Of a stretch of DNA of 64,000 nucleotides, positions 945 through 41,866 are shown one piece after another; positions within the stretch are counted from its first letter, which is position 1; each line of letters starts with the position of its first letter. The notes below the pieces were generated by a model. That model did no database searches, was not told where the DNA came from, and saw only the letters and a list, made by a program, of their open reading frames with translations. This DNA is from Siphonodentalium dalli. Its lineage: Eukaryota > Mollusca > Scaphopoda > Gadilida > Siphonodentaliidae. The stretch spans positions 3,251,566 through 3,315,565 of the forward strand of contig CP136069.1 of the NCBI GenBank assembly GCA_032622095.1. The letters are read 5' to 3'. A program made the translations under genes and the position numbers.

Positions 945-1075
945 CTTAACTTCAGAGTCCTTGCAGAACAAACAGGGGTTGTGGTCGATCAGCCTCTGTG
1001 ATTTAGCTGTGTCCAGGAAATAAACAAGCAAGATGAATCTCTTAAGTGTGTGTTCGGCAACAGCCTCTGCATAGC
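945..1075 (-). CDS. ASPM: ASPM exon 8: [13 protein letters not shown] block, last exon in window
   Basis: 131 nt, residues about 1216-1259. The acceptor chosen is TTTATCATTTTAG|GCTATGCAGAG, giving [16 protein letters not shown], the same length as the vertebrate RDGHEEALSKFTLKK. The AG nine bases downstream (GCAG|AGGCTG) also keeps the frame but drops three residues. The exon continues [19 protein letters not shown] and [10 protein letters not shown], ending at AAG|GTACGA (phase 0), the position after which the family continues toward the first CH domain. The remaining exons are beyond base 1. The acceptor and first seven exon bases are repeated about 30 times in the upstream intron (1076-2130). 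Confidence 0.95.
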
Positions 1076-2130
1076 CTAAAATGATAAACAAATTAACTCT
1101 CCACATAGCCTAACATGTTAGACAAATTAACTCTCCACATAGCCTAAAATGATAAACTGATTAAACCCCCGCATAGCCTAAAATGATAAACAAATTAACC
1201 CTCCGCATAGCCTAAAATGATAAACTGATTAAACCCCCGCATAGCCTAAAATGATAAACAAATTAACCCTCCGCATAGCCTAAAATGATAAACTGATTAA
1301 ACCCCCGCATAGCGTAAAATGATAAACTGATTAAACCCCTGCATAGCCTAAAATGATAAACCCCCGCATAGCCTAAAATGATAAACTGATTAAACCCCTG
1401 CATAGCCTAAATTGATAAACTGATTAAACCCCCGCATAGCCTAAAATGATAAACTGATTAAACCCCCGCATAGCGTAAAATGATAAACTGATTAAACCCC
1501 CGCATAGCCTAAAATGATAAACTGATTAAACCCCCGCATAGCCTAAAATGATAAACTGATTAAACCCCTGCATAGCCTAAAATGATAAACTGATTAAACC
1601 CCCGCATAGCCTAAAATGATAAACTGATTAAACCCCTGCATAGCCTAAAATGATAAACTGATTAAACCCCTGCATAGCCTAAAATGATAAACTGATTAAA
1701 CCCCCGCATAGCCTAAAATGATAAACTAATTAAACCCCCGCATAGCCTAAAATGATAAACTGATTAAACCCCCGCATAGCCTAAAATGATAAACTGATTA
1801 AACCCCCGCATAGCCTAAAATGATAAACTGATTAAACCCCCGCATAGCCTAAAATGATAAACTGATTAAACCCCCGCATAGCCTAAAATGATAAACTAAT
1901 TAAACCCCCGCATAGCCTAAAATGATAAACTGATTAAACCCCTGCATAGCCTAAAATGATAAACAAACAAACCCTCCGCATAGCCTAAAATGATAAACAA
2001 ACAAACCCTCCGCATAGCCTAAAATTATAGACAAATTAACCCTCTACAGATCCTAAAATTATAGACAAATTAACTCTCGGCATATCCTAAAATTATAGAC
2101 AAATTAACCTTCCGCATAACCTAAAATATT
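1076..2130. repeat. 34-bp minisatellite carrying the ASPM exon 8 acceptor
   Basis: About 30 copies of a unit that reads GCATAGCCTAAAATGATAAA plus CTGATTAAACCCCC on the + strand. On the gene (minus) strand each copy reads TTTATCATTTTAG|GCTATGC, identical to the exon 8 acceptor and its first seven exon bases. Copies next to the exon and at the distal end are more diverged; central ones are almost identical. If a canonical copy were used as an acceptor, the frame would read GC TAT GCG GGG GTT TAA, a stop within five codons. Confidence 0.95.
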
Positions 2131-2742
2131 ATGAACTTCTTCGGGTGCGTTAAACTGTTACATTAGTATTCAGGCAGTATGCCAACTGGAGGAATGTAGC
2201 ATTCTGCTACCACGCCAAAAATTTCAAGCAAATCTACAGTAGCACTCCATAGATACCATCATCTGAATTACGCTCAAATGTAAATATTTACTTCTCGATT
2301 CGGGACGCTACTATCAGCGATAAAGTAATCAAATAGATTTTGCCATCGAGAGATTATCGTCCATTTCTATTTGATCACCCTACCAGAGTGTTTCACATCA
2401 CTATTAAAAATTTAGCCCTCCACATAGCCAAATTAACCCTCTGCATAGTCTAAAGTTATAGATATATTAATCATCAGAGTAGCCAATAGACAAATTAACC
2501 CTCCTCATAGCCTAAAATTATAGATATCGGTAAATTAACTCAAAGTCGAACTTGACCTGTATTTTGGGTTAGTAAACCCACATACCAACTTTCATTCCAT
2601 TCAGACTTACAAAATTTATCGTCAGGAAACCAAAAAAAACGTACCCTGGCGGATGGACCAATAACACAATAGTTACCGTTAAAAAAAAAAACAGCGGTAT
2701 AAAAAGATTAGAATCATTGACTGACAAAAAACAATAATTTAC
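2131..2742. repeat. Intron 7 remainder: dispersed repeat fragments
   Basis: 2131-2400 is related to 39540-39800 (shared ...ATGCCAACTGGAGGAATG..., CACTCCATAGA and GTAAATATTTAC blocks), a dispersed element of unknown class. 2400-2540 holds decayed copies of the 34-bp unit (CCTCCACATAGCC, CCTCTGCATAGTC). 2545-2690 resembles the '...TTGACCTGTATTTTG...' repeat also found near 5860 and 49080. Confidence 0.6.
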
Positions 2743-2884
2743 CATCTCTGTAAAGATGAGGCACGGTTGGATGCGAGTATTCAGCAGCAATATCTGGGTT
2801 ACTGAGTAATCTGGTTACAATAAACCGTGATATACCAATGACGTCATCGTTACTCTGTATCGGTAGAATCTCACCATATGTTGT
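2743..2884 (-). CDS. ASPM: ASPM exon 7: TTYGE... [19 protein letters not shown]
   Basis: 142 nt, residues about 1169-1215. The acceptor is TTTGTTTACAG|ACAACATATG (phase 0) and the donor GATG|GTAAAT (phase 1). It encodes [18 protein letters not shown] and then [20 protein letters not shown] and TVPHLYRD, which matches the family almost position by position (vertebrate TTYGELI... [19 protein letters not shown]). The upstream intron holds a 37-bp minisatellite about 55 bp from the acceptor (2940-3145). Confidence 0.96.
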
Positions 2885-2939
2885 CTGTAAACAAAAATAT
2901 ACGTAATTACTATAATCTGATTTATGGCGCAAAATATGT

Positions 2940-3145
2940 GTGTGCACAAAGGGTCACTGACCGGCTCAAAATATGTGCGCGCACACAGGGTCACTAACCG
3001 GCGCAAAATATGTGTGCGCACACAGGGTCACTGACTGGCTCAAAATATGTGTGCGCATACAGGGTCACTGACCGGCTCAAAATATGTATGCACACACAGG
3101 GTCACTGACCGGCTCAAAATATGTATGCACACACAGGGTTACTGA
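2940..3145. repeat. 37-bp minisatellite, about 6 copies (ASPM intron 6)
   Basis: Unit GGCTCAAAATATGTGTGCGC plus ACACAGGGTCACTGACC. It includes the near-palindrome GTGTGCGCACAC. Copies differ at the GCGC/GCAC core. The array starts about 55 bp upstream of the exon 7 acceptor but does not contain splice-site sequence. Confidence 0.9.
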
Positions 3146-3483
3146 CAGGATAAAAATATTTTATATTTGACCGACACGTTTTCATCTCAATGTCATTTGT
3201 CAAAATGTATTAATTATAAAACCAACAAGTCGCCACAGAAGATTACATTTGAGAGCAGAGAATATATACATTGTAAAATCATTAATAGATTAGGCCAAAA
3301 TATTACACGTTCTAGGTTTTCATACATGCAAATTTTTTTAAATCCTTACTCAAGAAAATATTGATTTTTTTATATTAAAAATAATAAATAACAAAAATTA
3401 TTCTCAAATCCTACCTAAAAAAAAAAAAAATTGGATGAAAATATGCTTTCAAAAAAAAATCTCGCCTTTTATTGCGCACATAC

Positions 3484-3551
3484 CTCCAAACCAACACGCA
3501 GCCACAGAGGGTTATACGATAACAAGAGATCCAATATTTGCTGTTTGATTC
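3484..3551 (-). CDS. ASPM: ASPM exon 6: 68-nt exon, SYNPLWLRVGLE
   Basis: Tiny exon found by homology, phase 1 in and phase 0 out. The acceptor is TTTCCCCAG|GAATCA and the donor GAG|GTATGT. With the last base of exon 5 it encodes GIKQQILDLLLSYNPLWLR followed by VGLE, the counterpart of the vertebrate segment ending NPLWLRIGLE. It fills exactly the gap between exons 5 and 7. It cannot be seen as an open frame on its own because both flanks stop quickly. Confidence 0.93.
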
Positions 3552-3859
3552 CTGGGGAAAAAATATAAAATGAACTATATAACAAATATCAATCAACGGC
3601 TCCTTGTATAAGGTTTTTGTAAACTATAACATGAGTACAATTAAACAATATACAAAATTAGATAAAAGATATGAAAATGTACAGTAATTGTCAGCCCTAT
3701 AGAAACATGCATGCTGCTGGTACCGGTATGTTGATTACTGCTCCAGCAATGGCATGTTAAGCTTAACATTGTTAGAATTATTTGTGACAACACTCAGATT
3801 CAGCACTCCTCATTAAAATGTTGAATTTCCTTTTCTGATTACCATACATGTAAATGCAT

Positions 3860-4918
3860 TAGTGATGTTCCGATAATCGGAATCGGAATCGGCCATCGGC
3901 CGATAATCGCCCATCGGAAATTAATCGTACCTCGCAGTTGAACATAGGCTTTTACCGATTGTCAAAATAAATAAAAACGTTCTAGTATCTAAGCGCAATG
4001 TGCACGCTTTAATAAACATACGCAATACAACTGTAGTATTGAATGTAAAACGCAGTTGTAACAGCCTAAAAAGAAGCCATTGGCATCATCAAAGCAGTCT
4101 GATATGATGATATATTATAAGAATGGCAATACGCATGCCCGATCGCATCCCGTGTAATATGAAGTTATTGGTTCAATCGCGTTGACACGAAATAGATTCA
4201 AAGAAAGATTTAATTAAAAAGCTGACCTGATTACAGTGAGGCTTCCTCTAGAGCACGTGTCATGTGACGTCACGTGCTATGTCAATAACTTGAAGCACAC
4301 ACTGAATGAATTAATACAGTTGTTATCAGAACTGTCTTCAATAACGATCAACGTTAGTAGGGGCATAATTAGCTTTTTCGTCTGTACAACGTATGCTATG
4401 AAATACGCTTAGCTCCACGTTGAACTTGCGAAACCAAAATTGAGCAGGCGGAACTATAAAAGCTTCTGAGTTGTTAAAAGATAAAAGGTGTGACCAATGT
4501 AAACTTGGGAAATCTCAGACAATATAGTTAATAATCATCGCCATTCCATACATTGTTGCAACTTACAAGTATACAATCAAGACTTTTACTCCGCATGCAA
4601 GTGTTCCACACATGGTCATAACGTTACTCTGAGTCGGCACCTTTGATCTCTTTGTCAAAACAACTACCGGTATACATCAAAGGAAGCACACAACCGACGT
4701 CGGCAGAAATACTGTCACGACAGTGTGTATATATTTCTTTGATGTATTTGGCTTTGAAACTATGCGGGATATGGAGTGCATTGGGTGTATATAAGTCCAT
4801 TATAGGAACAAACGCACAATATATATAAACATCGGAATCGGAATCGGAAATCGGCCGATTGTGCCTCCAGTTATCGGAAATCGGTCCGATAAGCTTTTTC
4901 ATTATCGGAACATCACTA
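3860..4918. mobile_element. Non-autonomous hAT-like transposon with 8-bp target duplication
   Basis: 1059 bp bounded by TAGTGATGTTCCGATAAT and its inverted partner ATTATCGGAACATCACTA. Both sides carry the direct repeat AAATGCAT (3852-3859 and 4919-4926). An 8-bp duplication and TAGTG...CACTA-type ends are characteristic of hAT elements. Subterminal CGGAATCGG/CCGATTCCG-type repeats are dense at both ends. No transposase could be read inside. It lies in ASPM intron 5, inside an older repeat (3600-5150) that has a sister copy at about 29130-30600. Confidence 0.88.
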
Positions 4919-5183
4919 AAATGCATATCACAACATTGGAACTCACATGGATTTAAGTGTATGCATGGTCGCTATATCTGTACATGTACTGCCATGATAT
5001 TTGAGTTTGATAGGTATACAAAAAAATAATAATATAATAATAGAATTCTGATTAATCCAGCATTGGATATGATACGCAACACCTTTTAGAACCTTCGTTT
5101 ATCAAAGACATTGCACAATTACATATTTTCATAACAGTTGGAGAAAAAAAAAAATCGATTTAAATAAGGCCAAAAAAAATAAA

Positions 5184-6588
5184 GTTTTGGTTCTCAGGCC
5201 CCGCCGCATTGAATAAAAAGGGCCGCATTAGGCCTTTTTATTGCAATGCCTAATGTTATGACAAAAAAACTTTTTTTTTGGGATGTTATCAACATGTCCA
5301 TAGCAGATGTGTGTTGAATATTAGTGTGCATTGAGCTCTAACATGTAATGTGTTAAAAAGTGACTTGCAGGCTTACAACATGAAGTAGATGACTACAATT
5401 AAGAAAATGATTAGCTGATCCTCATGCTCTTCTTACAATTAGTCATTGTGAACAACTTACACTAATTGTAACTTTTATATACAATTTAAAGGCACAGGAC
5501 TAAATTCAGGATCACATATTAGAATGGGGAGGTATCAGTTTTTAGACAACAAGTGCACCGCTGGGCGGAGGTAACGCCCCCGACTGTGCAATCAGAGAGG
5601 ATTTTGCTTATTTTTGTGCATTCTACCAGGTAACATTTTGACCAAACTTGAGGCCTGGTCAGAACTTTCTTTTCTGAGCACAGAAACTTTCTGGTTAAGC
5701 GCTATAAAAATGCCACATGTTGTTCCATATTAGCTTCAAATTTGGTCTGGTGCCACAAAAATAGAAGGAAAACTGATTTTTTTTTTTTTTTTTTTAAATG
5801 AATTTTTTAAGTCGAAAAAGGGTCATAACTCTCACAAAAATTATCCGATTGAACCGAAATTTTACCTTGACCTGTATTGCGATATTGGTAATACACACAA
5901 AAAAAAACGGGTTTTGCAAATAAACAATCCAAAATCAACTTATCATCGGGAAACCAAAAAAAGTAGCAAAAAGGGGTGTAACTCTGGAAAAAATGGCGGA
6001 CGAAACCACGGCAATGGGGAAATCTTGTCCCCCCGGCTGGTCTATTGGCATACCAAAGATCAACTGAATTAATTTAGCGAAACCAAAGTTATGAGTTGAA
6101 ACGTTCGTATGCCACAGAAAACTGAATTTTCTAAGTCCAAAAAGGGGCGTAACTCTGGAAAAAATGGGAGGACGAAACCGCAGTTAGGGGGAAATCTTGT
6201 CCCCCCGGCTGGTCTATTAGCAAACCAAAGATCAACTGAATTGAGTTAGCGAAACCAAAGTTATGAGTTGAAACGTTCGTACGGACGGCTCCACTATATA
6301 CCCCCAAATCTCCATCGGAGATCGGGGGCATAACAATAACAGTAGTTAATGTCAGGGGCATTATATATTGTCTCGTAATCCCAGTCATACACTGGTGGTA
6401 CAATGTCATTTTTATATAAGACTGAATGAGTTTATATGCATAACAGTTCCCTCTACCTTTCTGGTTATTACTAGACAGAGGAAGGTATCTTTGTCCATGC
6501 TTACTATGCGCAGAAAAAAATAAAAAATAAAAATAAAACCCTCCCTCCCTCATTGATTTGAAGAAAAAAATTGCCCGAGAACCAAAAC
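5184..6588. mobile_element. Probable TIR element in ASPM intron 5
   Basis: Ends GTTTTGGTTCTCAGGC and GCCCGAGAACCAAAAC are inverted repeats with one mismatch. The insert splits an older hAT/Charlie-like repeat: flanks at 5150-5180 and 6600-6675 together resemble 30590-30690. Inside are two copies of a segment around 'AGGGGTGTAACTCTGGAAAA' (5970 and 6140) followed by a GTTATGAGTTGAAACG motif, and a palindromic GGGCCGCATTAGGCC stretch. No protein is recognisable. Confidence 0.55.
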
Positions 6589-6676
6589 ACTTTTTTTTTT
6601 GGGCCTAAAAAAAAATCTTATTTATTAAATCAAATTTATTTTTTCTATTGATTTAAAAAAAAATCACCAACCCTGG

Positions 6677-6781
6677 CCCTAAGTAATCGACTCCTTAACC
6701 ACAGCAGAATTATGGGTAACTTTTCAGGATTTAGTCGGAAATATGCTGTGGTTAAGGAGTCAACTATTTAGGGCATTACTG
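6677..6781. mobile_element. Truncated Tc1/mariner-type foldback MITE touching the ASPM exon 5 donor
   Basis: Same family as the element at 11622. The right end ...TTAGGGCATTACTG is followed by TA (6782-6783) and then the eight intron bases up to the exon 5 donor. The left end is truncated, starting at GCCCTAAGTAATCGACTCC, and fused to the end of an older repeat (CCAACCCTG). Confidence 0.8.
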
Positions 6782-6791
6782 TAGCACATAC

Positions 6792-7028
6792 CTAAATCTG
6801 CATGAATCATTTTGTCTTTCCTGACAGCTATCCTCTTTGCGACAACCTCTGCCTCCAGCTTGTGAATGATACGAATCATTGACTCTGACTGGAACAATCT
6901 GCATGCCGATCTCCTCAACCGATTCAGTCTCTGTCTGGCAGCGTATGCACGGAAAGACAGGACTTCCTTTGTCGGCGCCAGATTCTGGGTATTCGCTCGA
7001 CCATCGAGTGCTAATTTATGTGCATCGA
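6792..7028 (-). CDS. ASPM: ASPM exon 5: [22 protein letters not shown] helical block
   Basis: 237 nt, residues about 1067-1145. The acceptor is CTGATTTATGCAG|TCGATG and the donor G|GTATGT, both phase 1. It contains the conserved family stretch [19 protein letters not shown] followed by [20 protein letters not shown] and [22 protein letters not shown], predicted as continuous, basic, amphipathic helix. The vertebrate counterpart has [20 protein letters not shown] at this place. The donor is under unusual pressure: a Tc1/mariner-type element ends at 6781, leaving only 8 intron bases between donor and its TA target site. Confidence 0.96.
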
Positions 7029-10000
7029 CTGCATAAATCAGAAAAACAATCATGTTACAAGTAATTCAAAATAATTATAAAGTACTAAACATGATAAAAA
7101 CATTAAATAACTAGAATGCACTCACTGGAGCTGCCTATACTTGCGCCCATCACACATTTGGCATGTTGTGTGGTGTCTTGCCAACAACAGTTTGAACCAC
7201 GGGTGCTGGCCCCTCGTTTGAGAGATCGATAAAAAAAATCTAGATATCAAATCTATATTCATCCATCGCTGAAATAGTTGTGTGTACGGACATAATATCT
7301 CTGTTATCTCAAGTTGATCTACACTAGTTACACTAATGATAGTCTTAGTAATACGTACGAGTTGTTTGACATATTAATATAACACTACAGACATCGTTCA
7401 CATGAAAGGGTGTGAAGACGATTGGTTGCCGACGATGCTATATTATATGCCAATTGGGTTAACTTACTAGTTTGACTAGAATGATATCAAGTGTGTATGC
7501 CGACACAATTAATTAAAAGAAACGGGATCATTGGTTAGTCTTTGATTAACAATGTGTCAACGTGAACATGCCCTTATCGACTGATCTACAGACTTCGGGA
7601 ACATATCAAAATGTCTATTGCGTTGAGAATGAGAAAGCTTGTTTTCCCAGTTAATTAATAAGGCATTTTAATAATCCATGTTTCCACATTCACATTTTCA
7701 GTGCAATTGTTTTTCAATTGAACCACGCGCTCGACTGTTTGACCGGACATGATTTATATGCACCAGGATCTTTCGAAAATGTTTTGAACTTTCCAGAAAT
7801 ATGTTCGCACCTCAGTCACTGCGAAAAAAAAAACGATTCCGCACGCATCTTTTAGACATGATCTCAACTCATTTCCTCGCGTTTGATGTTATATAAAATA
7901 GGCTTATAATGGGCATGTACTGTTGCCGATGTTTGTTTTACATGTAGTATATATATTTATAATAATCAAACACGAAGTTGTTGGCAGATGAAATGGTTTA
8001 GCCTGTCCGTGTAATACGAGTCTCAGCTGTCTGGACATCGACGCAATCATGTCTGTGTTTTGCGCGCCCATGTAGCTTGTGACGCCATGTAGCTTGTGAC
8101 GTCCTGATGTGCGTCGTGATCGGTTTTCAGAAAGAAATAATTCAATATTGTTCATTTATGAACGATTTAATACCAAAATAAAACCAGATAACAATGCAAA
8201 TTAAGTATATATGTGGATTTAAATAACAATTGATGCCACCATTTCATATTAGCGCGTGTTCATTTTTACAGTATGTACATCCGGTATGACGTAACATATT
8301 CACGGAAGGAAGGAAGGATAAACAGACATCCGAGCCGAAAACATTACTTGCGTCCAGCATAGACTGGCGCAAGTAATTATAGATCACAAATACCGGTAGT
8401 TTCAGATGATTAAAACTTTAAAAGCCCATTTAATTTTCGAACCCCCAGATCACATTATATAACATATATGCCATATTACATGTAATTGTATATACCATTT
8501 GAAACAGGAAGCTCCAAAACATTATATTAACTTATCCGGTGCAATAAACTCAGAAAATGTGGTTTTTGTTGAAGTACCGCCATGTTTTCCGTGCTTAAGT
8601 TTCATCTGGACTCTACTGCAAAGTCTATTAATTTCAATGACGGGAATAACTCAATGTCTTAGTTAATAAAATTCTGTGAGCGAAACAGGGGAAATGTTTC
8701 TATGATTTCAGCTATATTCTATTACGGCAGGGCTAGATTTAACTGGATTTGCATCGCGAAACCACGTGTGTTTATTTATTTTCGTAATTAAATTTAGCAA
8801 GTCGCGACTGCGCATGCTCTTCTAATTCGGCATCATCCGTCACCGGACGTGAGCCTCGGGGGCGGTGATGGAATCTGACGAGGTTTGACAAATGACTGGT
8901 ATTACTGCACGCGTCAAAACTCTGAACCTATCGATGTGGTTAGACGAATGTTGACCACAAGTCTTGTCAAACACCCATCGCAAGAGATTACATTTTCTCC
9001 ACTCCCTATAACAAATTAAAGAACAGACGACGTATGACATCTACCGGTATGCTCCCTATATAATATATTTTGGCCAGTCGATGGGAGTTAGCCGCAACAT
9101 TTTGCAACAAAATGGGCACCCAATAGTCAGTTCGTTCCGCAGGGCAACATAATAATGCGGAATTGTGCTATTTTTAGTTAACTGGGAATTCCCAATTAGA
9201 TTCACAAAATGATAACAAATTTACCCGTTAAAAAGAATGAAACAAGTAGTTTAAGCGCCGGAGTTGACAATGAGAAAAAAAAGAAGCAGAAATCTGACAC
9301 AAAAAGAATCGACATTGCGCCACCTCAGCATAAATTTAAAACCGTAACAGTAAAAAAAATGGATTAATAACGACTTAGCCATTTACAGTTTACCATGCTG
9401 ATAAAAATGGATCGAAGTTTTAATCATTTTGGTGCACTAATTAGTACAACACATGATTTTGATTATTATTTGTTGCTTGCTTAATGCCTTAATGAAACTT
9501 CACATTAATTTCATAATTTTCATTGGTTGTTTCCTTCCTTAGTGATTGCTTGGCAATATGACATTGGTACATGGAATACAGTGAGACTGATCTAAGGTTT
9601 TGATCATGCTGTTCATTACAGCAAAAACAAACATGTTACATTATAATTATAAACATGATCAGAGATGGTAAAACATTGATAACAGAACACAATAATACTG
9701 ACGTTATACTGGGGTACAGGGGTTTTGAAAGTGTATAGGTAGCTCAGTTTACATGTATATTAAATTGGTGCCTGTCAGTGACAGGCACGCTCAGGGGAAA
9801 TTTGAGAAATTATTTGCAGGCTTGCCCATGCTCAATGGGCACCTTCTGAGACAGACGTTCCAAATGGTGATGAATTTAATATAGTATTTTATTACATGAT
9901 CCTACCCTTATTCCATTCAATAAATTGTGATATTAAACGTTCGTTTAATAACAGGAAATAGTGCCAGGTGACCTTTGACTTCCGGTTTGTTGTCAGTTAA

Positions 10001-10413: not shown

Positions 10414-10572
10414 TTGTAGATCCTCTATTTAATCATATTTTCATAGATTGTTATTAAAACCGTATATCAATCATTCAATGCAATATAAAAACAATAATCG
10501 GCGACTCGAAAATTAAATGGGCCTTTAAATGCCGATACATTTCGTGTGCTGGTGCTGCATTAAAGATGCTGT

Positions 10573-10736
10573 GCCAGTGCATTCTCTTATATATGCGAGT
10601 CTCCCATAGGGAGCCTCGCATATATAAGAGAATGCACTGGCTTATGATGTCAAGGTAATTATTGTTAGGCAAATGTATTCTCTTTTATATGTGAGGCTTC
10701 CAATGGGAGACTCGCTTAAAAAGAGAATGCATTGGC
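10573..10736. mobile_element. Two copies of the GCATTCTCTTATATATGCGAG hairpin
   Basis: 10573-10641 is an almost perfect 69-bp palindrome (GCCAGTGCATTCTCTTATAT ... mirrored). 10671-10736 is a diverged second copy. This hairpin is the commonest repeat in the window; see 16594 for the full element. Confidence 0.85.
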
Positions 10737-11843: not shown

Positions 11844-11874
11844 TAACTCTGTATCCATATTACCGTATACTAAC

Positions 11875-20533: not shown

Positions 20534-22463
20534 CTTTAGGAACAGTTGTCATAGATCTCCTTGTTTGTTGCTTGGTTCCCGTTGTCATAGATCTCCTTGT
20601 CTGTTGCGTGACTCCCGTAATTGGTCTCTGTCTCTTCGACATCTGCTGTACCTTCGATACATTCTCGGGAGACTTCCTCTTTAGGTCACACGTCCCGCTT
20701 GGGTTCCTTACACTGTCACACACTTCCAGATGTTGCTTGGAGTTACTCATAGATAACCTGTTCTTCTGTCCCTTATCTTCATCACCTTTCGTCTCTACGT
20801 CAGTGTACTGTGACGTATTTCTCTCTGCGGCCGTTGTCACAATTGTAGGAACATTATCAGTCTCCGGGGCTTCAAATGAAATGTTTTCGTCGCTTGAATA
20901 TTTCTTGACGATGGGACTTTGAGAAAGAATGGCGGCTTCGTCGACATCATTATCGGTGCATGGAAGGGGAGAGAACAACCTCTTCTTCTCTATCCCTATC
21001 GTTTTATGAAGGTACGAACATCTTTTATCCACCAGATGAGTAGAGCGTCGTGACGTATCGGGATTTGGACTGGTCGGTAGTTGATTCGGTGTGATGTGAA
21101 TACTGTAGTTACTCGTTGCAGTAACAGGTGTCAGATGACATATTGCATTTGAATGAGAATTTTCTTTTTTCAATCTTTCCAAACTTGCAGTTCTGGAACA
21201 ATCGTCCAAATAATCAATATTACCAGCCTCAATTTGACTATGCCCGCCCATTGTCAGGCCACCATCATTCACATTTCCAGACAAGTCACTCCCACTATTT
21301 TCTTTCTCGTCTTCACTTCTTGATTCAAAGAGCTGCTTTCTCGACACAAATCCGTCCACATCAACTTCAATTTGAACCTTGGACTTTGTCACGGTACTCG
21401 TCATCAGAGGGTAAGATTTCGCGATGGTTAAATTCGTTAAATCTTCACTGCTTTTTGCGGGTACCTGTTCACACAAAGGAGCGCTGAATGGAGGTGAGAT
21501 ATTCGATGGAGCAGCACACTTTTTGGATAGTAATTTCTTGGGCAAATTAATCTTCTTCTTTAAAGACGTATATGTTGTTCTTCGTGGGCTAGAGGTAGCT
21601 TTCTCAATCTTTGCAATCCCTTTTTCTCCCTTTAGGGGCTTAAATTTCTCCTTACATGTAGTTGCTTCAACACCGACATGCTGTTTCGATGTCCGCACAC
21701 TTCTACCCGCAGCTATATTAGGTTGCCGTGGAAACTTCCTTAAGTTGTTTGCAGGTGACTTGGGTTTTAGAGGCTTTTTAACAATCACTCTCGTCGTACT
21801 GGCTGATTTCCTGACACCTGCTTGAATATTCTTCGTCTTGATATTATTTGATGATTTTTCGGCACTCTTCCGAATGATATTGGCTGCAGTAATAGACTCG
21901 GTCCCGCTTGCGTTCTTTGAAGCCTCAAGCTCCTTTAGATACGTATTAGGGCTAACAACAGGTTTATAGGCAACGCTATCTTCATAGAAAACATTTCTCT
22001 GCGGAGTCTGTGTAAATATACCAGTACTTTGGAACACATCAACATCAGTAATCTTCACATCTTTCAGAACAGACTCGGTCAATACTTTCGGAGAAAGTGA
22101 ACCAACAATCGGTGATATTGCCTGATTCTTGTCATGTCGTTTTCCCTTGATATCATCATAAGGACTATAATTTCCACTGGACTCGGACAGGACATTTTGA
22201 CTGTTGCTGTCCCTCAGAACCTTCGGCTTCTCAGTTGAATTGTTTCCCCTGAAGTTGAATGTTTTATCAGATTTTCTTGGTGAGCTGTTCTGGGTGGGAT
22301 GGATGTTTTCATCATTCTCCTTATTCTGGCTTGAGAAGTAATCATCAACAAGCGAGGTGTCGTTTGCGTTCTTGGGGTTGTAAGCATTCTGAAGCGACTT
22401 CAAGCCTGGTGTTTGAAGTACGTTTACTGGCTTTCGGACCCGGGAATTGAGTAGACCTCTTTT
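20534..22463 (-). CDS. ASPM: ASPM exon 2: large disordered, basic, S/T-P rich exon
   Basis: Long exon of 1930 nt, residues 339-981 plus one base. The acceptor is TATATTTTCAG|AAAAGAGG and the donor AAAG|GTACAT (phase 1), which rebuilds PK-AKVV with exon 3. In vertebrate ASPM the equivalent position is also taken by an oversized exon of low conservation. The product is low-complexity and rich in S, T, N, K and P, with many minimal Cdk-type S/T-P sites (QTPGLK, HPTQNSSP, FTQTPQ, LPTSPNPD, LKRKSPEN) and basic clusters such as KKPLKPKSP and SKRQRP that could serve as nuclear localisation signals. No folded domain is visible. Near the 3' end a 39-bp stretch is duplicated in frame, giving two copies of QQTRRSMTT. 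Codons are varied and the frame is clean, so the exon is not a relic. Confidence 0.92.
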
Positions 22464-32001: not shown

Positions 32002-32074
32002 GGTTTGTACTTCACATTTGGTGACACATTGAAGAACTTCATCTTCGAAGGAATTAATATAGCTTCCACTGATG
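32002..32074 (+). CDS. Copper transporter exon: N-terminal FGDT motif
   Basis: 73 nt. The acceptor is CTCTTTTTACAG|GGTTTG (phase 0) and the donor GATG|GTATGA (phase 1). It encodes GLYFTFGDTLKNFIFEGINI and then ASTD. In CTR proteins the segment xFxFGDTxxxLFxGW lies just outside TM1; the aromatic-FGDT-hydrophobic pattern is kept. The exon starts immediately before the motif. In SLC31A2-type proteins only a few residues lie upstream of it, so the missing start exon may encode only a handful of amino acids. A foldback transposon (31513-31926) ends about 75 bp upstream of this acceptor. Confidence 0.85.
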
Positions 32075-32283
32075 GTATGATTATTTATATTATAAACTAC
32101 AACACAATATACCCATAAGGTGCATGCTGCTAACTATGTGGGGCTCCATGTGGGTTACATTCAGAGGGTTAACTCTTCCATGACTGGAGCTTCCTGAAAT
32201 TTTGCAATGTGCCAATGCTTTCTCTTATTTATGCGAATCTCCCATATCAAATCCAGTCGTAAGTCGGGATTTTTTTACCCTGT

Positions 32284-32585
32284 GCCAATGCATTCTCTTA
32301 TATATGCGAGTCGACCATAGGTCGCCTCGCATATATAAGAGAATGCATTGGCTTAACAATTGTTTATCATTTTTTTTAAATAAATGTTTCTTACAATTTT
32401 TAGGACATAAAATAAAAAAAAACATCCATTACCCTGCAGGGAGCCCCACACATATATAGAAGCATATAGAAGAGTGTTGTCTGCTCATGTTTGTCTGGGG
32501 CTCTGTATGGGTGAAATTATAAAATACATTGGCCTAACAAAATTTACATTGACTGTATAAGTCAGAGAATGCACTGGCACAGGAT
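32284..32585. mobile_element. Hairpin-family element fragment
   Basis: Palindrome 32284-32352, then a T-rich spacer and 'CAGAGAATGCACTGGCACAG'. Followed by 'TGCACCAGCGCAGCTCCCATC...GGAAAGGGTTAA' (32590-32627), the right end of a TTAACCCTTTCC variant also seen at 49630 and 52286. Confidence 0.7.
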
Positions 32586-32787: not shown

Positions 32788-33278
32788 CCCCATTTGTGTT
32801 TTTGCAGATCTCATTGTGGTTGTGATTGTTATGACGTTGCTGACGATGACATTTGTGTTTTTGCAGATCTCATTGTGGTTGTGATTGTTATGACGTTGCT
32901 GACGATGACATTTGTGTTTTTGCAGATCTCATTGTGGTTGTGATTGTTATGACGTTGCTGACGATGACATTTGTGTTTTTGCAGATCTCATTGTGGTTGT
33001 GATTGTTATGACGTTGCTGACGATGACATTTGTGTTTTTGCAGATCTCATTGTGGTTGTGATTGTTATGACGTTGCTGACGATGACATTTGTGTTTTTGC
33101 AGATCTCATTGTGGTTGTGATTGTTATGACGTTGCTGACGATGACATTTGTGTTTTTACAGATCTCATTGTGGTTGTGATTGTTATGACGTTGCTGACGA
33201 TGACATTTGTGTTTTTGCAGATCTCATTGTGGTTGTGATTGTTATGACGTTGCTGACGATGACATTTGAAGCTGCGAA
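32788..33278 (+). repeat. 59-bp minisatellite carrying the TM1 exon acceptor (8 copies)
   Basis: Acceptor G at 32807, 32866, 32925, 32984, 33043, 33102, 33161 and 33220, an exact 59-bp period. Each unit is TTTGTGTTTTTGCAG, then ATCTCATTGTGGTTGTGATT and the next 23 exon bases. Copies are almost identical; the seventh has TTTTTACAG. Only the eighth continues into GAAGCTGCGAAAC. Splicing to any earlier copy reads D-LIVVVIVMTLLTMTFVFLQ then ISLWL and a TGA stop. Confidence 0.97.
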
Positions 33279-33425
33279 ACTAATAATGTTATATATTGAT
33301 CTCAAAAGAAAACAGGATCCATTGACGTACGGGCAAACCGATCGAATGGACAGGGTGGATGGGTCAGGTATTAACATGAGTTCTCTACTAATCCCGTCAA
33401 ATGAAGCAACAATACGTCGCAAAAA
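33221..33425 (+). CDS. Copper transporter exon: TM1 and cytosolic loop
   Basis: 205 nt. The acceptor is TTTGTGTTTTTGCAG|ATCTC (phase 1) and the donor CGCAAAAA|GTGAGT (phase 2). With the preceding base it gives D-LIVVVIVMTLLTMTFEAAKL followed by IMLYIDLKRKQDP: transmembrane helix 1 and the FEGLK-like motif at its cytosolic end. A hydrophilic loop with GINMSSLLIPSNEATIRRKK follows. Seven near-identical copies of the acceptor and the first 43 exon bases lie in tandem upstream. Only this last copy runs into the rest of the exon, because after the previous seven copies the sequence returns to TTTGTGTTTTTGCAG instead of continuing GAAGCTGCG. The long TM1-TM2 loop is within the range of the family. 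Confidence 0.9.
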
Positions 33426-33458
33426 GTGAGTAATTTATAAGTTACACTGAAATGGACA

Positions 33459-35670
33459 CCTTTAAACTACCCGTATGGAGCCCCTCACAGACGTGAGCAG
33501 ACGACACTCAGCAATACAAGCTGCCACCTGTATGGGGCTCCCTACAGGAAGCTCCAGTCATGGAAGGGTTAATACAGTTTTAGTTGCTGGGATTTTACAG
33601 GTTTTAACATTAAATGGACACCTTTAAACTACCCTTATGGAGCCCCTCACAGACGTGAGCAGACGACACTCAGCAATACAAGCTGCCACCTGTATGGGGC
33701 TCCCTACAGGAAGCTCCAGTCATGGAAGGGTTAATACAGTTTTAGTTGCTGGGATTTTACAGGTTTTAACATTAAATGGACACCTTTAAACTACCCTTAT
33801 GGAGCCCCTCACAGACGTGAGCAGATGACACTCAGCAATACAAGCTGCCACCTGTATGGGGCTCCCTACAGGAAGCTCCAGTCATGGAAGGGTTAATACA
33901 GTTTTAGTTGCTGGGATTTTACAGGTTTCAACATTAAATGGACACCTTTAACACGTTGAGTGCCGGAAATCAATTAGTAATCTCGCCAGTTTGCCAAATC
34001 GTGGCAAGATAGATACCCGTAGTAGACCATAATTTGGATGACGTCGCGACTTTAGATGACAGAAACGGCGATTGATAGTACTACGAGATAACTCGTAGCC
34101 GGCAATGGCGGAAGGAATTTGGGTATTCCCACCACCAGTGCCAACTACGAGTTATCTCGAAGACACAATTGGACACGTTTGACTCTTTGAGCAACAAATA
34201 TGAAGTAGAATGTAACCAAAACAAGTTATTTTGGTGGTCAGCATATTGATGGAGGTGTGTGTGTCCTTGTGGTGGTTATAGCTCGTTATATAGTTATATT
34301 ATGGCTGATGCACGCTGGAGAAAATTACTTATATGAGAATGCATGGCTACAGACGGTGAATCCGACGTGGAATCGGGTGAACTTGTTTCCTGTGAGGATG
34401 AGTTTATTTCATCCATGACTACGAGCATGCATATTTACGAGCATGCATCTTCTGTTGTTTCGGGCATTGTAAGTTATCTCCCATATAGCCTGATTTAGGC
34501 CTATGCTAGGGTTCCAAAGTACAGCCCGAAATAATAGTGTAGGAAGATTTGTCAGCACAAAATTAAAGCAACGATGCAACAGTAGCTAAATAGATCCCTG
34601 TATATTCAGGAGTGTGCTACATGTAACGATTCCATATAATCCATCCGTCTGGAAATAAGTTACCCTTACCCCAAACCCCTATGCTACACAAAACCATTTA
34701 TCCGTATATACATGTGGAACAGTTCGATGAACTGCATGACGTCTAGAGTACGGTAATTGTTATGCTTTCCATTGTCCAACACGTTCGGAAGAGGGTACAA
34801 TGTAGCTTTGGGGAATAATTGTTCCGCTTTACTTGAATTATAAATAATAAAATACCTAGCCCCCAAATGGAGCCGCACAGTGTATTCCAAAAACAACTGC
34901 TGTGTTCCCTAATAATGAGATAATGGTAGCATCAATGTGCGTAACGTCATGGATTATCCGCTTGTCTTGTATTGGATGCGTCCATTCGCACATGCATGCG
35001 CGGGAACAGATTTGGCAGGCCTGTGTGACATGTATGGGTGGTTGTGCGAAGTTTCTATGTATTGAAACACAACGATGTAACCATCATTCCTCGAAACTGC
35101 CTTCGCATGTTTGTACATTGTGAATATCCACCTCCTGACTGTGTTTGCAAGCTTGCATGCACAATATCAGTCTATTGAATACCAAAAACCCAATCCAATT
35201 GTCCACACACGACTGCCTCTGGCGGTCACTCATTGAGACAGTGTCAGCTGTATTCACTCACAACTGGATCATTTTGAGTAGAATATATGTGCTCATGGTG
35301 CTCACCTCTGTTGAACAATGCAAGGAGAGCCACACTATTTATTTGATAAAATCACTGTTCTGATGTCCCGATGCGGGTTTTCGTGGTGCATCGACATATT
35401 CCACTGCTTCCGTTTGTCAGTTACACGACATGGAAACCACTACGAGATAACTCGTAGTGGCAACCTGCGAAGGTTGCGTACTACGAGATAACTCGTAGTG
35501 GCACTCAACGTGTTAAACTACCCTTATGGAGCCCCTCACAGACGTGAGCAGATGACACTCAGCAAAACAAGCTGCCAAATGTATTGGGCTCCCTACAGGA
35601 AGCTCCAGTCATGGAAGGGTTAATAAAATTTTAGTTGCTGGGATTTAACATAATAATCGACTCCTTAACC
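33459..35670. repeat. 162-bp tandem repeat, four copies, the fourth split by a transposon
   Basis: Copies start (CCTTTAAACTACCC) at about 33459, 33621, 33783 and 33945. The fourth is interrupted at its TTAA and resumes at 35513. The unit contains AGCCCCTCACAGACGTGAGC and TGTATGGGGCTCCCTACAGG, ending in GGAAGGGTTAATACAG...GGGATTTTACAGG. Tandem cores of about 160 bp resemble those of bivalve pearl/CvA-type Helitron-related elements; that is only a suggestion. Confidence 0.9.
33952..35512. mobile_element. TTAA-target element inserted in the 162-bp array
   Basis: About 1.56 kb with ends CACGTTGAGTGCC and the exact inverse GGCACTCAACGTG, flanked by TTAA. The uninterrupted neighbouring copies (CCTTTAAACTACCC) supply the empty site. 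Near both ends are CTACGAGATAACTCGTAG palindromes. TTAA target and excision-like precision fit piggyBac. A short acidic frame from 34344 (MATDGESDVESGELVSCEDE) resembles the acidic start of many piggyBac transposases, but no DDD core is readable, so it is at best a relic. Confidence 0.85.
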
Positions 35671-35820
35671 ACCGCAGAATTAGGGGTAACTTTTCAGGAT
35701 TTGGTCGGAAATATGGCTTGTTGCCATTCATCGGAAAGCTCTCAGTGAGAGCTTTCCGATGAATGGCAACAAGCCATATTTCTGCTGTGGTTAAGGAGTC
35801 GATTATTTAGGGCATTACTG
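35650..35820. mobile_element. Tc1/mariner-type foldback MITE, left end missing
   Basis: Begins within AATAATCGACTCC, ends TTTAGGGCATTACTG then TA. The loop is TCTCAGTGAGAGC. Confidence 0.8.
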
Positions 35821-35939
35821 TAGTTGGGTACCCAGCTTTTTAGCTCAACTTTACTTTGTAAAGTTTGAGCTTTTGCCATGGCTTTGTCGTCCATCGTGCG
35901 TGTGTGCGTGCGTGTGTGCATGATTCGTCAACAATTTCT

Positions 35940-37330
35940 TTTAGCACGGGCTACAGGTTTTACCTTTGGTCGGATCTTTATAAAATTTGTCATGAAATTC
36001 GTCATGGATGTTAGTATTGACATGTAGATGGGAACGAGTAATTTTGGGGTCATTCGGCCAAAAAACATGGCCACCAGCAGCCATCTTGGATTTTACTCTT
36101 TGCATGACTAAATTGTTTTGGCACGGGCTACAGATCCTACCTTTGGTCGAATCATAATGAAATTTGTCATGGATGTTAACAATGACATATAGATGGGAAC
36201 GAGTCATTTTGGGGTCATTCGGCCATAAAACATGGCTGCGGGCAGCCATCTTGGATTTTACTCTTTGCATGACTAAATCCTTTGGCACGGGCTACAGGTC
36301 ATACCTTTTGTTGGATCATTATGAAATTTGTCATGACATTGACATGTAGATTGGAACGAGTCATTTTGGGGTCATTCGGCAAAAAAACATGGCCGCCAGC
36401 GGCCATCTTGGATTTCAAAATTCAATCCATTGGCACGGGCTACAGGCCGGAGTGTTTGTTTGATCATCATGAAATTTGTCATGGAAGTTAATATTGACAT
36501 GTAGATGGGATTGAGTAATTTTGGGGTCATTCGGCCAAAAAACATGGCCGCCAGCAGCCATCTTGGATTTTACTCTTTGTATGACTAAATCCTTTGGCAC
36601 AGGCTACAGGTCGTACCTTTGGTCGGATCATCATGAAATTTGTAATGGATGGAACGAATCATTTTGGGGTCATTCGACATAAAAACATGGCCACCAGGAG
36701 CCATCTTGGATTTTACTCTTTGCATGACTAAATCCTTTGGCACGGGCTACAGGTCGTATCTTTGAACGGATCATTATGAAATTTATAATGGCTGTTGACA
36801 TTGACATCGAGATGGGAACGAGTCATTTTGGGGTCATTTGGCCAAAAATCATCGCCGCCAGCAGCCATCTTGGATTTTAATCTTTGCATGACTAAATCCT
36901 TTGGCACGGGTTACAGGTCGTACCTTTGGTCGGATCATCATGAAATTTATCATGAATGTTAACAATAGCACGTAGATGGGAACGAGTCATTTTGGGGTCA
37001 TTCATTAAAAAAACCAGTGGCCATCTTGGATTTCATAATTCAATAAATTAGCACAGACTACAGGCCGGAGTGTTAGTCTGATCATCATGAAATTTGTGGT
37101 GGAAGTTAATATTGACACGTAGATGGGAACGAGTCATTTTGGGGTCATTCGGCAAAAAAACATGGCCGCCAGTGGCCATCTTGGATTTCAAAATTCAATC
37201 CATTAGCACGGGCTACAGGTCATACTGTTCGTCTGATCATCATGAAATTTGTCATGGATGTTAATATTGACATGTAGAGGGGAACGAGTAATTTTGGGGA
37301 TATTCGGCCAAAAAACATGGCTGCCAGTCA
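35940..37330. repeat. About 165-bp degenerate tandem repeat, about 8 copies
   Basis: Recurring blocks: GGCACGGGCTACAGG, GATCATCATGAAATTTGTC, ATGGGAACGAGTCATTTTGG, CATGGCCGCCAGCAGCCATC and TTGGATTTTACTCTTTGC. Copies are diverged and two are shortened. Preceded by GAGCTTTTGCCATGGCTTTG and TCGTCCATCGTGCGTGTGTG, a start common to dispersed mollusc repeats. Frames across it are not conserved as protein. Confidence 0.88.
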
Positions 37331-37810
37331 CATTCATTTAAAATTGGAAGTTGTCATGATATAAATTAGATATGAGGAAAGTTACCTGCATTTCAATCAA
37401 AGCTTGCTAGTGTTATATGAACTACATTGTATATGAAACATATGAATGGTAATTCCAAGTGACTGATCGCTCAGAAACAGGCTGATGTTATGACGTAAAT
37501 GTTTGCATCATTACGTGTGATGTTTGCATCACTACATGTGATGCTTGCATCACTATGCGTGATGCACATTCCTGATAGCGTTGTGTTTCTCAGTTAAGTG
37601 AGAAAACAATGGAATAGTTGAATTCGCGGAACAAATAAAAAATAATAATTATGGCATAAATAAATACACGCATAGTAGCCGAGAGTAAAAAAAATTCACC
37701 ACTTGTGGAATTGTGGTTTTAACCACTCGCCAAAAGGCTTGTGGTTAAAACCATAATTCCACTCGTGGTGAAAATTTGGTATTCTCGGCTACTATGGGTG
37801 TATTCTATAT
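37331..37810. mobile_element. Foldback-containing repeat, relative of 40612-40990
   Basis: 37360-37600 matches 40640-40830 (GGAAGTTGTCATGATAT..., GTGACTGATCGCTCAGAAAC). It is followed by a palindrome CGCATAGTAGCCGAGAGTA...TATTCTCGGCTACTATGGGTG around AACCACTCGCCAAAAGGCTT. Confidence 0.75.
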
Positions 37811-37950
37811 GCCCACATATTTAGGGCATCACTCTACTATTGCCCACACTAGGTCATATGCCCAGCTCTCGTTCTTTTTAGATTGCACGGGGGCTATTTC
37901 AGTCATATGGTTACTATTTTATGAGGTCCCCTCTGTTTCAATCTTTTTAG

Positions 37951-38066
37951 ATTGCAGTATTTGACGGCAGGTTATTTTGTTCACATGGTAACTATGTTCG
38001 AAGGATACATCCTGATGTTTGCTGTGATGTCGTATAATGCATGGCTTTTGCTTGCTGTTATAATCG
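37951..38066 (+). CDS. Copper transporter exon: TM2 with MxxxM
   Basis: 116 nt. The acceptor is TTTCAATCTTTTTAG|ATTGCAG (phase 2) and the donor ATCG|GTATGT (phase 1). It encodes K-LQYLTAGYFVHMVTMFEG followed by YILMFAVMSYNAWLLLAVII. MFAVM is the MxxxM motif whose two methionines form the copper filter in the trimer, and SYNAW matches SLC31A2 (MSYNTW). A second AG seven bases into the exon (ATTGCAG|TATTTG) would break the frame: the preceding AA then joins T to give AAT, and the following codons are ATT TGA. So the first AG is required. Confidence 0.93.
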
Positions 38067-38142
38067 GTATGTAACACATTTCCACAGTACCACATAAGCT
38101 CTGGTCAGCCCAGATATTACTTTTTTTTAAACAAGGCTTGAA

Positions 38143-38612
38143 ATAGCGTGTCTGTCATTTGCAGAATGAGGTTCACAGAGGGTGAATTTAGTGATGCTAT
38201 CCCGCACAGTGGGCTAGCATCACCAAATTCACCCTCTGGGAACCTCATTCTGCTGAAGCCTCAACTGCTATGTGAGACCTACATGTACATGTACAGATCA
38301 AGGCAAAACCTGAGTGTAGAATAAAACTGTGATCATTATGTAGTTATTGTAGTGTATCATTTCAAAATCAAGTAATGTAAACTCAAGGTTTTTTTTAAAC
38401 ATTCCAACAATAAATACATTGTGTACATCTCAAATACAAAGCTGGAGTATTATTATTGGGGTAGCATCACTAAATTCACCCTCTGAGAACCTCATTCTGC
38501 TTAGGCCTCATCTTCTCTGGCAAGTTTCTTTATCATAACCTGATGTGCAGGTTAATGTCAGTATATTCACCCTCTGGGGACCTCATTCTGAAAATGACAG
38601 ACACACTATTTC
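38143..38612. mobile_element. Foldback MITE with AATAGCGTGTCTGTCATTTGC ends
   Basis: Same family as 31513-31926; right end AAAATGACAGACACACTATT. Confidence 0.78.
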
Positions 38613-38676
38613 AAGACTTGATTTTAAAGATGGTTTAATTGTCTCTTCCCTGAAATTTTTGTAACATGATCACATA

Positions 38677-38838
38677 CAGTAATGCCCTAAATAATCAACT
38701 CCTTAACCACAGAAGAATTATGGGTAACTTTTCAGGATTTAGTCGGAAATATCGCTTGTTGCCATTCATCGGAAAGCTCCTGAAAAGTTACCCATAATTA
38801 TGCGGTGGTTAAGGAGTCGATTATTTAGAGCATGACTG
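38677..38838. mobile_element. Tc1/mariner-type foldback MITE, shortened
   Basis: CAGTAATGCCCTAAATAATC to TTTAGAGCATGACTG, then TA; part of one arm is deleted. Confidence 0.82.
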
Positions 38839-38998
38839 TACTCTACAATAGTATTAACAGTCATTGTGAACAAAAATTGTTAATCACCTTTGTTGTAGGT
38901 ATGAACGTTTCCCATACGTTTTGAACTGCGAAGTGTATAGGCTCTATATCCACCATGGTGGTTCATACCAATCCGACCACGCAACATAAAGACCCTGT

Positions 38999-39445
38999 GC
39001 CAATGCATTCTCTTATATATGCGAGTCGACCATAGGTCGCCTCACATATATAAGAGAATGCATTGGCCTAACAATTTTTTATCAATTTTTCTTACATTCT
39101 TTAACAATATTTATAATTTTATATCATTTTTTGTTACAATACGTACATTCTATAACAATTTTTATTTTTATTTTTTTATTATTTTTTCTTCCATTCTATA
39201 GGAATTTTTATCATTTTTTTTATCATTTTTCCTTACATTTTTTAACAATTTTTATCATTATTTCTTTAATATATTCTTTAACAATTTTTATCATTATTTC
39301 TTATATTCTTTAACAATCTGTATAATTAAAAAAAAAAAATTCTTACATTCTTTAACAGTAAAAATGATATAAAATTTGTTAGGCCAATGCGTTCTTTTAT
39401 ATGGTCCTATGGTCGACTCACATATATAAGAGAATGCATTGGCAC
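38999..39445. mobile_element. Two hairpins separated by a T-rich spacer
   Basis: Hairpin 38999-39067, a TTTTTATCATT-rich spacer, then a decayed hairpin 39382-39445. It is the core of the TTAACCCTTT family. Confidence 0.75.
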
Positions 39446-39539
39446 AGGGTTTTCACATTTTGTGATATAGCTACAGTAGGTACTTTCAAATTGCCATGTT
39501 ACAGTAACTCTGTGGGGAAATAAAGATCAAAGTCGACAT

Positions 39540-40390
39540 GTTAAAGACATATTATGGACTTGTTCAAGTGCGATAAACTTATAAGTGCGATAAACTTATA
39601 AGTTAATAAACAGCCGCTATGCCAACCTGGAGAATGCATAATTCTAATACATGTAAGATCACCGAAAATTTCAAATGAATTGAACATACCACTCCATAGA
39701 AAACATCGTCTGAACTACGCTCAATTGTAAATATTTACATGTCAGTTTGGGACGCAACAATCGGCGATAAACTACACAAAAGATTTTGCTATCTAGTGTC
39801 ATTGCATTTAATTAATATATGTAAGAATGACTGTGTGTGTTGTCAATTTGAATTAATATTCGTAAAAAAATAACTACTTTGAGCAAGATCATTCTCCATA
39901 TCTATTTGATCACTCTAACGGAGTGATTCACATCACTTTAATAAAAAAAAAACACTAGTTATACTTTCATAAATCGATGATATTATGTGACAAAAAAATA
40001 AATAAATTTTAATAGCTTTTTTATACACTTTCACAATTCCCTCAGGTTTCATATCCCTTCGCCAGGTAGCAGCACTGATGTACTAGTACTGAGTTGCCGG
40101 GGGTCCACAGAGGGTTGAAGCGTTGACAAATTTGTTCGATTTTTTAAGTTCTAACTTTCCAATATTATTCTTGTTGGTAGGATTATGGTATAATCATAAT
40201 ACACTCGTGTGGTAAACATAATACATGCGTGTGGTAAACATAATACATGCGTAGTGTTTCTGAATACCAAATTTACACCGCTCGAGTCATGGGATTGATG
40301 ATTTACCACACGAGCTTTGGCGAGTAAATCATCAATCCCATGAGTTGTGTAAATTTGGTATTCAGAAACACTATGTGTGTATTCTATATT
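39540..40390. repeat. Dispersed repeat plus foldback in copper-transporter intron
   Basis: 39540-39800 is related to 2131-2400. 40190-40390 is a foldback: GTGTTTCTGAATACCAAATT ... AATTTGGTATTCAGAAACAC around TACCACACGAGC...GAGTAAATC. No exon seen. Confidence 0.65.
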
Positions 40391-40611
40391 TATAACATAA
40401 TTGGCTGTTCTATTGTGTGTATAACACCCTTTTTGTAAACTTCATCTTTACACCCTACTGTGGGTATACAGTTTCCTTCTGTGGGTATACATTTCTACTG
40501 TGGGTGTAAATGTTCTAACGTAATTTCATGTGTTAAACGTGTATGACTATAGTAGAACTACATCTGTGTATGACTATAGTAGAACTACATCATAGTTAGC
40601 AAAATTATGTC

Positions 40612-40965
40612 TTATGTCACATACATTTAAAATAGGAAGTTGTCATGATATCAATTAGATATGAGGAAAATTGCCTGAATTTCATTCAAATGTAGCTTGG
40701 TTGTGCTATATTAACTAGGAAACATATGAATGATAATTCCAAGTGACGGATCGCTCAGAAACGGGATGACGTCATGACATTAATGTAAGCATCACTACAC
40801 GTGACGCACAGTCCTTATAGCGTCATGTTTGTGTATCTGGGTGAGGATACACATTCAAAGTAAACAGCGGGGTAGTTCCCCGTTCGTGGTATTGTGGTTT
40901 TAACCGCTCGCCAAAAGGCTCGTTGTTAAAACCACAATTCCACTGATGCTGAAAATTTGGTATTT
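40612..40965. mobile_element. Foldback-containing repeat, relative of 37331-37810
   Basis: Same order of blocks as at 37331, ending in the palindrome TTGTGGTTTTAACCGCTCGC...GGTTAAAACCACAA. Its right end runs directly into the 39-bp array that follows. Confidence 0.75.
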
Positions 40966-41475
40966 TCGGATACTATGCGTGTATTCTATATATATTTGGT
41001 ATTTTCGGATACTATGCGTGTATTCTATATATATTTGGTATTTTCGGATACTATGCGTGTATTCTATATATATTTGGTATTTTCGGATACTATGCGTGTA
41101 TTCTATATATATTTGGTATTTTCGGATACTATGCGTGTATTCTATATATATTTGGTATTTTCGGATACTATGCGTGTATTCTATATATATTAGTTGGTAT
41201 TTTCGGATACTATGCGTGTATTCTATATATATTATTTGGTATTTTCGGATACTATGCGTGTATTCTATATATATTTGGCATTTTCGGATACTATGCGTGT
41301 ATTCTATATATATTATTTGGTATTTTCGGATACTATGCGTGTATTCTATATATATTATTTGGTATTTTCGGATACTATGCGTGTATTCTATATATATTAT
41401 TTGGTATTTTCGGATACTATGCGTGTATTCTATATATATTTTGTATTTTCGGATACTATGCGTGTATTCTATATC
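40966..41475 (+). repeat. 39-45 bp minisatellite, 13 copies, grown from a foldback end
   Basis: Unit GGTATTTTCGGATACTATGC plus GTGTATTCTATATATATTT. The first six are 39 bp; later ones gain 3-6 bp (TTAG, ATT). The unit is the terminal 39 bp of the preceding foldback element, whose relative at 37780 has GGTATTCTCGGCTACTATGG once only. Because units are multiples of three, long open frames cross it; they are artefacts. Confidence 0.95.
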
Positions 41476-41534
41476 AGAGGTTTAGAATAATAATTATGAG
41501 TTGAGGTCCAGACCTAATTTACTAGACAAGTTTT

Positions 41535-41866
41535 GTAAATTCTGCATATCGATTTCAGTATCACGTCCGGTTAATATTTTACAGGTATATCGATTTCAGT
41601 ATCACATCTGGTTGATATTTTTCAGGTAGCGGCTTATCGATTTCAGTATCACATCTTGTTGATATTTTTCAGGTAGTGGCTTATCGATTTCAGTATCACA
41701 TCTGGTTGATATTTTTCAGGTAGCGGCTTACCGATTTCAGTAACATGTCTGGTTGATATTTTTCAGGTAGCGGCTTATCGATTTCAGTATCACGTCTGTT
41801 GATATTTTTCAGGTAGCAGCTTATCGATTTCAGTATCACGTCTGTTGATATTTTTCAGGTAGCGGC
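41535..41866 (+). repeat. 47-bp minisatellite carrying the last-exon acceptor (7 acceptor copies)
   Basis: Acceptor G at about 41583 (diverged), 41625, 41672, 41719, 41766, 41812 and 41858 (the real one). Unit: GATATTTTTCAGGTAGCGGC, TTATCGATTTCAG, TATCACATCTGGTT. Each copy repeats the acceptor and the first exon bases GTAGCGGC. Splicing to the nearest upstream copy reaches a TAG where the real exon's GGTAGC is read one base out of phase. Confidence 0.93.

Follow-up and report, generated by a model that had tools for sequence, protein, structure and literature searches.

The window analyzed here, 64,000 nucleotides of contig CP136069.1 of the scaphopod Siphonodentalium dalli (assembly GCA_032622095.1, positions 3,251,566 to 3,315,565), contains exons assigned to ASPM on the minus strand and to a copper-transporter gene on the plus strand. 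Our analysis confirmed that three exons in these two genes are each preceded by tandem copies of their own splice acceptor. The three arrays (cases 1 to 3, Table 1) were located using Tandem Repeats Finder (TRF), split into units and compared with the open spliced frames. With small corrections, they lie where a preliminary description of this DNA had placed them, in front of the exons that begin at 1075, 33221 and 41859. As also stated there, in all three arrays the copy nearest the exon is the sole one to continue into the full exon, and intact gene frames place the true boundary at the exon end of each array. The exon portion of the unit, given there as 7 to 43 bases, was right in essence and is better stated as about 7 bases in case 1, 43-48 in case 2 and 8 in case 3.

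Case 1 comprises 31 units (30 of 34 bp and one of 25 bp) from the first in-register AG to the exon. It contains 29 in-register decoy AGs, and two other units end in AC. Interior units differ from the consensus by 0-2 bases (two exceptions have 4), while five exon-distal units differ by 6-10 bases and the two exon-nearest units by 9 and 6, giving an array with a homogenized interior and diverged edges. Furthermore, an extra AG lies 12 bases before the junction in 21 of the 31 units and is missing from the exon-proximal one. The spliced frame is open across five ASPM exons and encodes 242 amino acids. Pfam returned no match in the frames of the case 1 exon or of the other ASPM exons tested, and the ASPM/SPD-2/Hydin (ASH) domain (1.1e-19) was found further upstream, in another open frame of this strand. 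These exons are assigned to ASPM on the basis of their frame, their strand, the nearby ASH domain and their resemblance to human ASPM. At 20545-20618, the long open frame interpreted as an ASPM exon contains a tandem duplication of 36 bp, a length divisible by three.

Four exons of the copper-transporter gene were identified in the window, two of which (33221 and 41859) follow arrays of their own acceptor. The spliced frame stays open down to the stop codon, and its translation has a match to solved CTR1 (4.9e-5). Case 2 contains eight AG junctions, seven decoys and the true one; one of them reads TTTTTACAG instead of TTTTTGCAG, and splitting into units revealed almost no divergence anywhere in the array. 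Case 3 contains seven AG junctions, six decoys and the true one, and in all seven GT follows the AG directly. The decoy junction of case 3, TTTTTCAG/GTAGCG, might then act as a recursive (zero-length) splice site, at which a wrong choice would be corrected by further splicing. This is scarcely credible, however, as the exon itself begins with GT, GTAGCG makes a poor donor, and GT is absent from the junctions of cases 1 and 2.

Alignment of the array borders revealed that the founding unit of case 2 carries the six-base word CATTTG at either end, which is the mark expected of one duplication between short matches; around it, only scattered single matches were found. The initial proposal of local duplication by slippage or break repair is thus supported by microhomology in case 2, and no founding match was clear by eye in cases 1 and 3.

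Table 1. Features of the window discussed in the text (a slash marks the AG junction).
Feature	Positions	Strand	Unit or content	Basis
Candidate fourth case, in the ASPM intron that follows the exon of case 1	1..854	minus	28-bp unit, 30 copies, TTATTTTTAG/TCCTTC	Unit split, acceptor-like motif
ASPM exon	945..1075	minus	Acceptor AG 1076-1077; donor GT starts at 944 and runs down	Open frame shared with four ASPM exons upstream, splice contexts
Case 1 array	1069..2127	minus	34-bp unit, consensus ...TTTATCATTTTAG/GCTATGC	TRF, unit split
Copper-transporter exon before case 2	32002..32074	plus	Acceptor outside arrays	Open spliced frame
Case 2 array	32791..33268	plus	59-bp unit ...GACATTTGTGTTTTTGCAG/ATCTCATTG...	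TRF, unit split, stops
Microhomology CATTTG, intron side	32791..32796	plus	Start of first case 2 unit	Border alignment
Copper-transporter exon after case 2	33221..33425	plus	Alone without Pfam match	Open spliced frame
Microhomology CATTTG, exon side	33263..33268	plus	Where the exon leaves the case 2 repeat	Border alignment
Copper-transporter exon between cases 2 and 3	37951..38066	plus	Pfam Ctr; acceptor outside arrays	Pfam, 7.3e-7
Case 3 array	41547..41866	plus	46/47-bp unit ending TTTTTCAG/GTAGCGGC	TRF, unit split, stops
Last copper-transporter exon	41859..42020	plus	Coding part and stop codon	Open spliced frame

The view that such a pattern had never been described proved wrong, as amphioxus carries arrays known as "mirages", for which the original Adh paper is reportedly that of Canestro et al. 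(2002). According to PMC3087553 and PMC3902484, mirages are minisatellite-like tandem duplications spanning intron-exon boundaries in Adh3, the globins BflGb6 and BflGb9 and other genes, and seem not to disturb normal splicing; PMC3902484 adds PGBD5 and mentions troponin C. Our arrays resemble mirages in having units that span the boundary, many with splice signals (29, 7 and 6 decoys in cases 1, 2 and 3), and, in case 1, a homogenized interior that leaves out the edges, just as the boundaries of the BflGb6 cluster were excluded from homogenization (PMC3087553). In contrast, the mirages described there have units of 10-160 bp, occur at both kinds of boundary and were studied for splicing by reverse transcription PCR, whereas the arrays reported here are seen only at acceptors and are described from their sequence.

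Partial parallels exist in other lineages. An intron of the potato RNA-dependent RNA polymerase gene was gained by tandem duplication across an intron-exon boundary, a two-copy version in which the duplicated segment likewise holds a putative branch site, tract, acceptor and exon start; there, however, one duplication created a new intron with a donor from a cryptic site, whereas here many copies are present with no sign of a new exon (PMC4974935). Minisatellites with units of about 30 bp also alter gene structure in human segmental duplications, through exon and intron changes that sometimes include new introns, but half of them lie in coding sequence, and arrays made of acceptors are not described in the part of PMC2812944 consulted. 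In plants and green algae, tandem-repeat density is higher near intron ends, so that repeats concentrate near junctions as they do here, although this result is a density statistic that names short motifs rather than copies of the junction (PMC3887541). Among the papers listed by an open-access literature search, there was no genome-wide count of boundary arrays and no report from a mollusc. The arrays look like another example of a known phenomenon and not a new one.

To what extent chance accounts for the three cases depends on how arrays are distributed in the window, whose GC content is 36.8%. TRF arrays with a score of 50 or more were merged into 40 arrays covering 23.4% of the bases. Under unrestricted random placement, a mean of 2.4 acceptors were covered, and three or more were covered in 44% of 1000 trials (P = 0.44). 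Since arrays hardly occur in coding sequence (they take up 137 of 4311 bases, a count that assumes the ends of two long ASPM exons), we consider a null that restricts entry into exons to be fairer. With entry limited to 50 nt and no arrays inside exons, the mean was 0.40 and three or more acceptors were covered in 5 of 1000 trials; a repeat allowing short arrays inside exons gave a mean of 0.465 and 3 of 1000. With this same placement, looser limits of 75, 100 and 150 nt, at which arrays can swallow the smallest exons, gave 46, 50 and 323 of 1000. At limits of 50, 75, 100 and 150 nt, the corresponding counts were 1, 20, 34 and 193 for arrays of three or more copies, and 0, 12, 15 and 175 for arrays of five or more. 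The 50-nt limit was set after the data had been seen, and the finding itself had been reported for being striking. The excess of arrays at acceptors depends on the null, and the evidence for it is moderate.

The boundaries used were the ten acceptors and eight donors identified, a set from which short exons may be missing. Three of the ten acceptor junctions and none of the eight donor junctions lie inside arrays, a contrast that is not significant (one-sided Fisher P = 0.15, calculated by hand), and the window provides no evidence of an acceptor excess over donors. When boundaries of either kind were counted for all arrays at the 50-nt limit, three or more were covered in 35 and 37 of 1000 trials in two placement runs. 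A duplication mechanism that targets acceptors, for instance slippage or break repair favored by the polypyrimidine tract or by co-transcriptional branch-point structures, would agree with the three acceptors against no donors and with their rarity under exon-respecting placement, and the array at 1-854 may add a fourth case. We nevertheless consider such targeting unlikely, as the acceptor and donor counts do not differ significantly, the excess fades when deeper intrusion into exons is allowed and is absent without restriction, and amphioxus cases occur at both boundaries (PMC3087553). The recurrent duplication of intron-exon junctions initially proposed is thus plausible and matches the amphioxus report, while an acceptor-specific process was not borne out.

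A crude motif scan of all 40 arrays detected 8 whose unit includes an acceptor-like site; the preliminary description had examined four arrays besides the three cases. The array at 1-854 is among these 8, as are cases 2 and 3. Case 1 was missed, presumably because an additional AG stands a short way upstream in its consensus unit. The array at 1-854 carries the acceptor-like TTATTTTTAG in nearly every unit and runs off the window, so that any exon following it would lie outside. In one frame the bases after its AG read PSQEIH, a weak coding resemblance to ASKEIL of human ASPM. The window has 637 acceptor-like sites, of which 22 reach the same three identities, and the phase of this reading mismatches the preceding donor. 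The array may represent a fourth boundary minisatellite, and we regard it as a lead only.

Use of any of the 42 in-register decoys would introduce a premature stop (29/29 in case 1, 7/7 in case 2 and 6/6 in case 3), and regular decoy use would therefore be harmful. Such stops are usual in long non-coding insertions and hence are not evidence of design. The preliminary description had raised decoy-acceptor regulation. Decoys with such a role might absorb U2AF and the U2 small nuclear ribonucleoprotein or divert some of the transcripts to nonsense-mediated decay, thereby tuning expression. Although the 42 stops are compatible with this idea, it found no support and appears very unlikely: case 3 precedes the last exon, in which a premature stop would usually escape decay for want of a splice junction beyond it, and the two AC-ending units and the extra AG in 21 of 31 units of case 1 look as if unconstrained. 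A point in its favor comes from PMC5389562, according to which splicing is inhibited when two acceptors are occupied at once.

That study also describes duplicated beta-globin acceptors whose upstream copy was followed by 14, 55 or 205 nt of exon; these were spliced to the distal site only, and inefficiently. According to PMC9225289, the upstream of two competing acceptors is preferred overall, but this preference is significantly weaker with long introns, where the sites closest across the exon are favored. The introns holding cases 1, 2 and 3 are 1667, 1146 and 3792 nt long. In the light of these two studies, choice of the last copy by the spliceosome is plausible. The spliced frames of both genes need no exon from inside the arrays, and although a small exon with its own donor was not searched for there, the sequence requires no new exon that would indicate intron gain.

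Predicted RNA folding gave z-scores of -3.1 for case 2, -0.3 for case 3 and +1.0 for case 1, compared to -1.1 and -0.1 for two acceptor controls outside arrays. Where two case 2 units meet (33183-33240), a hairpin of 14 pairs could enclose the acceptor. When 58 nt at the true acceptor were folded, this hairpin was predicted (z -2.1), and at the first decoy it was not (z +1.6); with 96 nt at the true acceptor, another fold was preferred (z -1.0). Folding that hides the decoys cannot account for the choice of the last copy. The exon-derived arm of the case 2 hairpin brings with it a branch-point-like CTGAC.

Taken together, we favor, with a probability of about 0.74, the explanation that the arrays are boundary minisatellites of the amphioxus mirage kind, that is, chance duplications across acceptors that were tolerated and then amplified. 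A tandem duplication would first have arisen by chance across the intron-exon boundary, in case 2 between the two short matching words, and would have been tolerated, with the exon-adjacent copy keeping the whole acceptor and an intact exon, as it does in the sequence. From two copies, unequal exchange or slippage would then have expanded and homogenized the interior while the edges diverged. The spliceosome would choose the copy next to the exon, because no other copy is followed by the full exon. We ascribe no function to the arrays. That each unit consists of the exon's own acceptor and exon start, with only the last copy continuing, and that the window is generally rich in tandem arrays both argue for this explanation. 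Several observations weigh against it. Exon-respecting placement shows an acceptor excess that a purely random origin does not predict, in a finding selected for being striking. The preference for upstream acceptors (PMC9225289) makes use of the last of many copies not obvious. Furthermore, the true acceptor of case 2 and decoys 2-7 have nearly the same sequence, from 59 nt before the site to at least 43 nt beyond it.

A tentative alternative, to which we give limited credence, is that acceptor-spanning minisatellites form a genome-wide, truly acceptor-biased class in this lineage and move splicing signals. In that event, the functional acceptor of case 2 would have a copied-in, exon-derived, branch-point-like CTGAC upstream, with over 400 bases and seven AGs separating it from the original branch region. 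Wrong expansion of the repeats during assembly is highly improbable. One amphioxus mirage was misassembled in the draft genome (PMC3087553), but the units here carry internal variants, including one 25-bp unit, three unrelated units occur in two genes, and an artefact would presumably change copy number more easily than create the first duplication.

Other repeats were observed in the window. A 162-bp array of three copies (33450-33951) begins about 25 bases past the donor of the exon ending at 33425 and excludes this donor; a single related copy was seen by eye near 35510-35640. At the exon beginning at 37951, a second AG lies six bases downstream of the acceptor (TTTTTAGATTGCAG, 37945-37957) and could serve as an in-frame alternative. 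A 70-bp unit is repeated about 50 times from 60542 to 64000, reaching the right end of the window. Inspection by eye also revealed a palindromic dispersed element (GCCAATGCATTCTCTTATATATGCGAG...), for example at 10570-10640, 32280-32355 and 38990-39070, and a second dispersed element with TAATGCCCTAAATAATCGACTCCTTAACCAC that recurs elsewhere in the window; both look like miniature inverted-repeat elements. Pfam scans in six frames (42.1-57.1 kb and 57.0-60.5 kb) and in the three frames of the gene strand (12.1-20.4 kb and 25.3-32.0 kb) detected no further genes, the sole match in these four ranges being zf-HC2 (0.077), below the cut-off. A Med23 match (0.16) was dismissed as noise, and Rfam at gathering thresholds found nothing.

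Introns with up to 29 similar competing acceptors constitute natural tests of how the spliceosome chooses a site. Three cases in two genes show that a genome can carry boundary minisatellites at high density and, should the species lie outside the cephalochordates, would widen the phenomenon beyond amphioxus, the source of the reports found. Such arrays could in addition give rise to new exons and introns.

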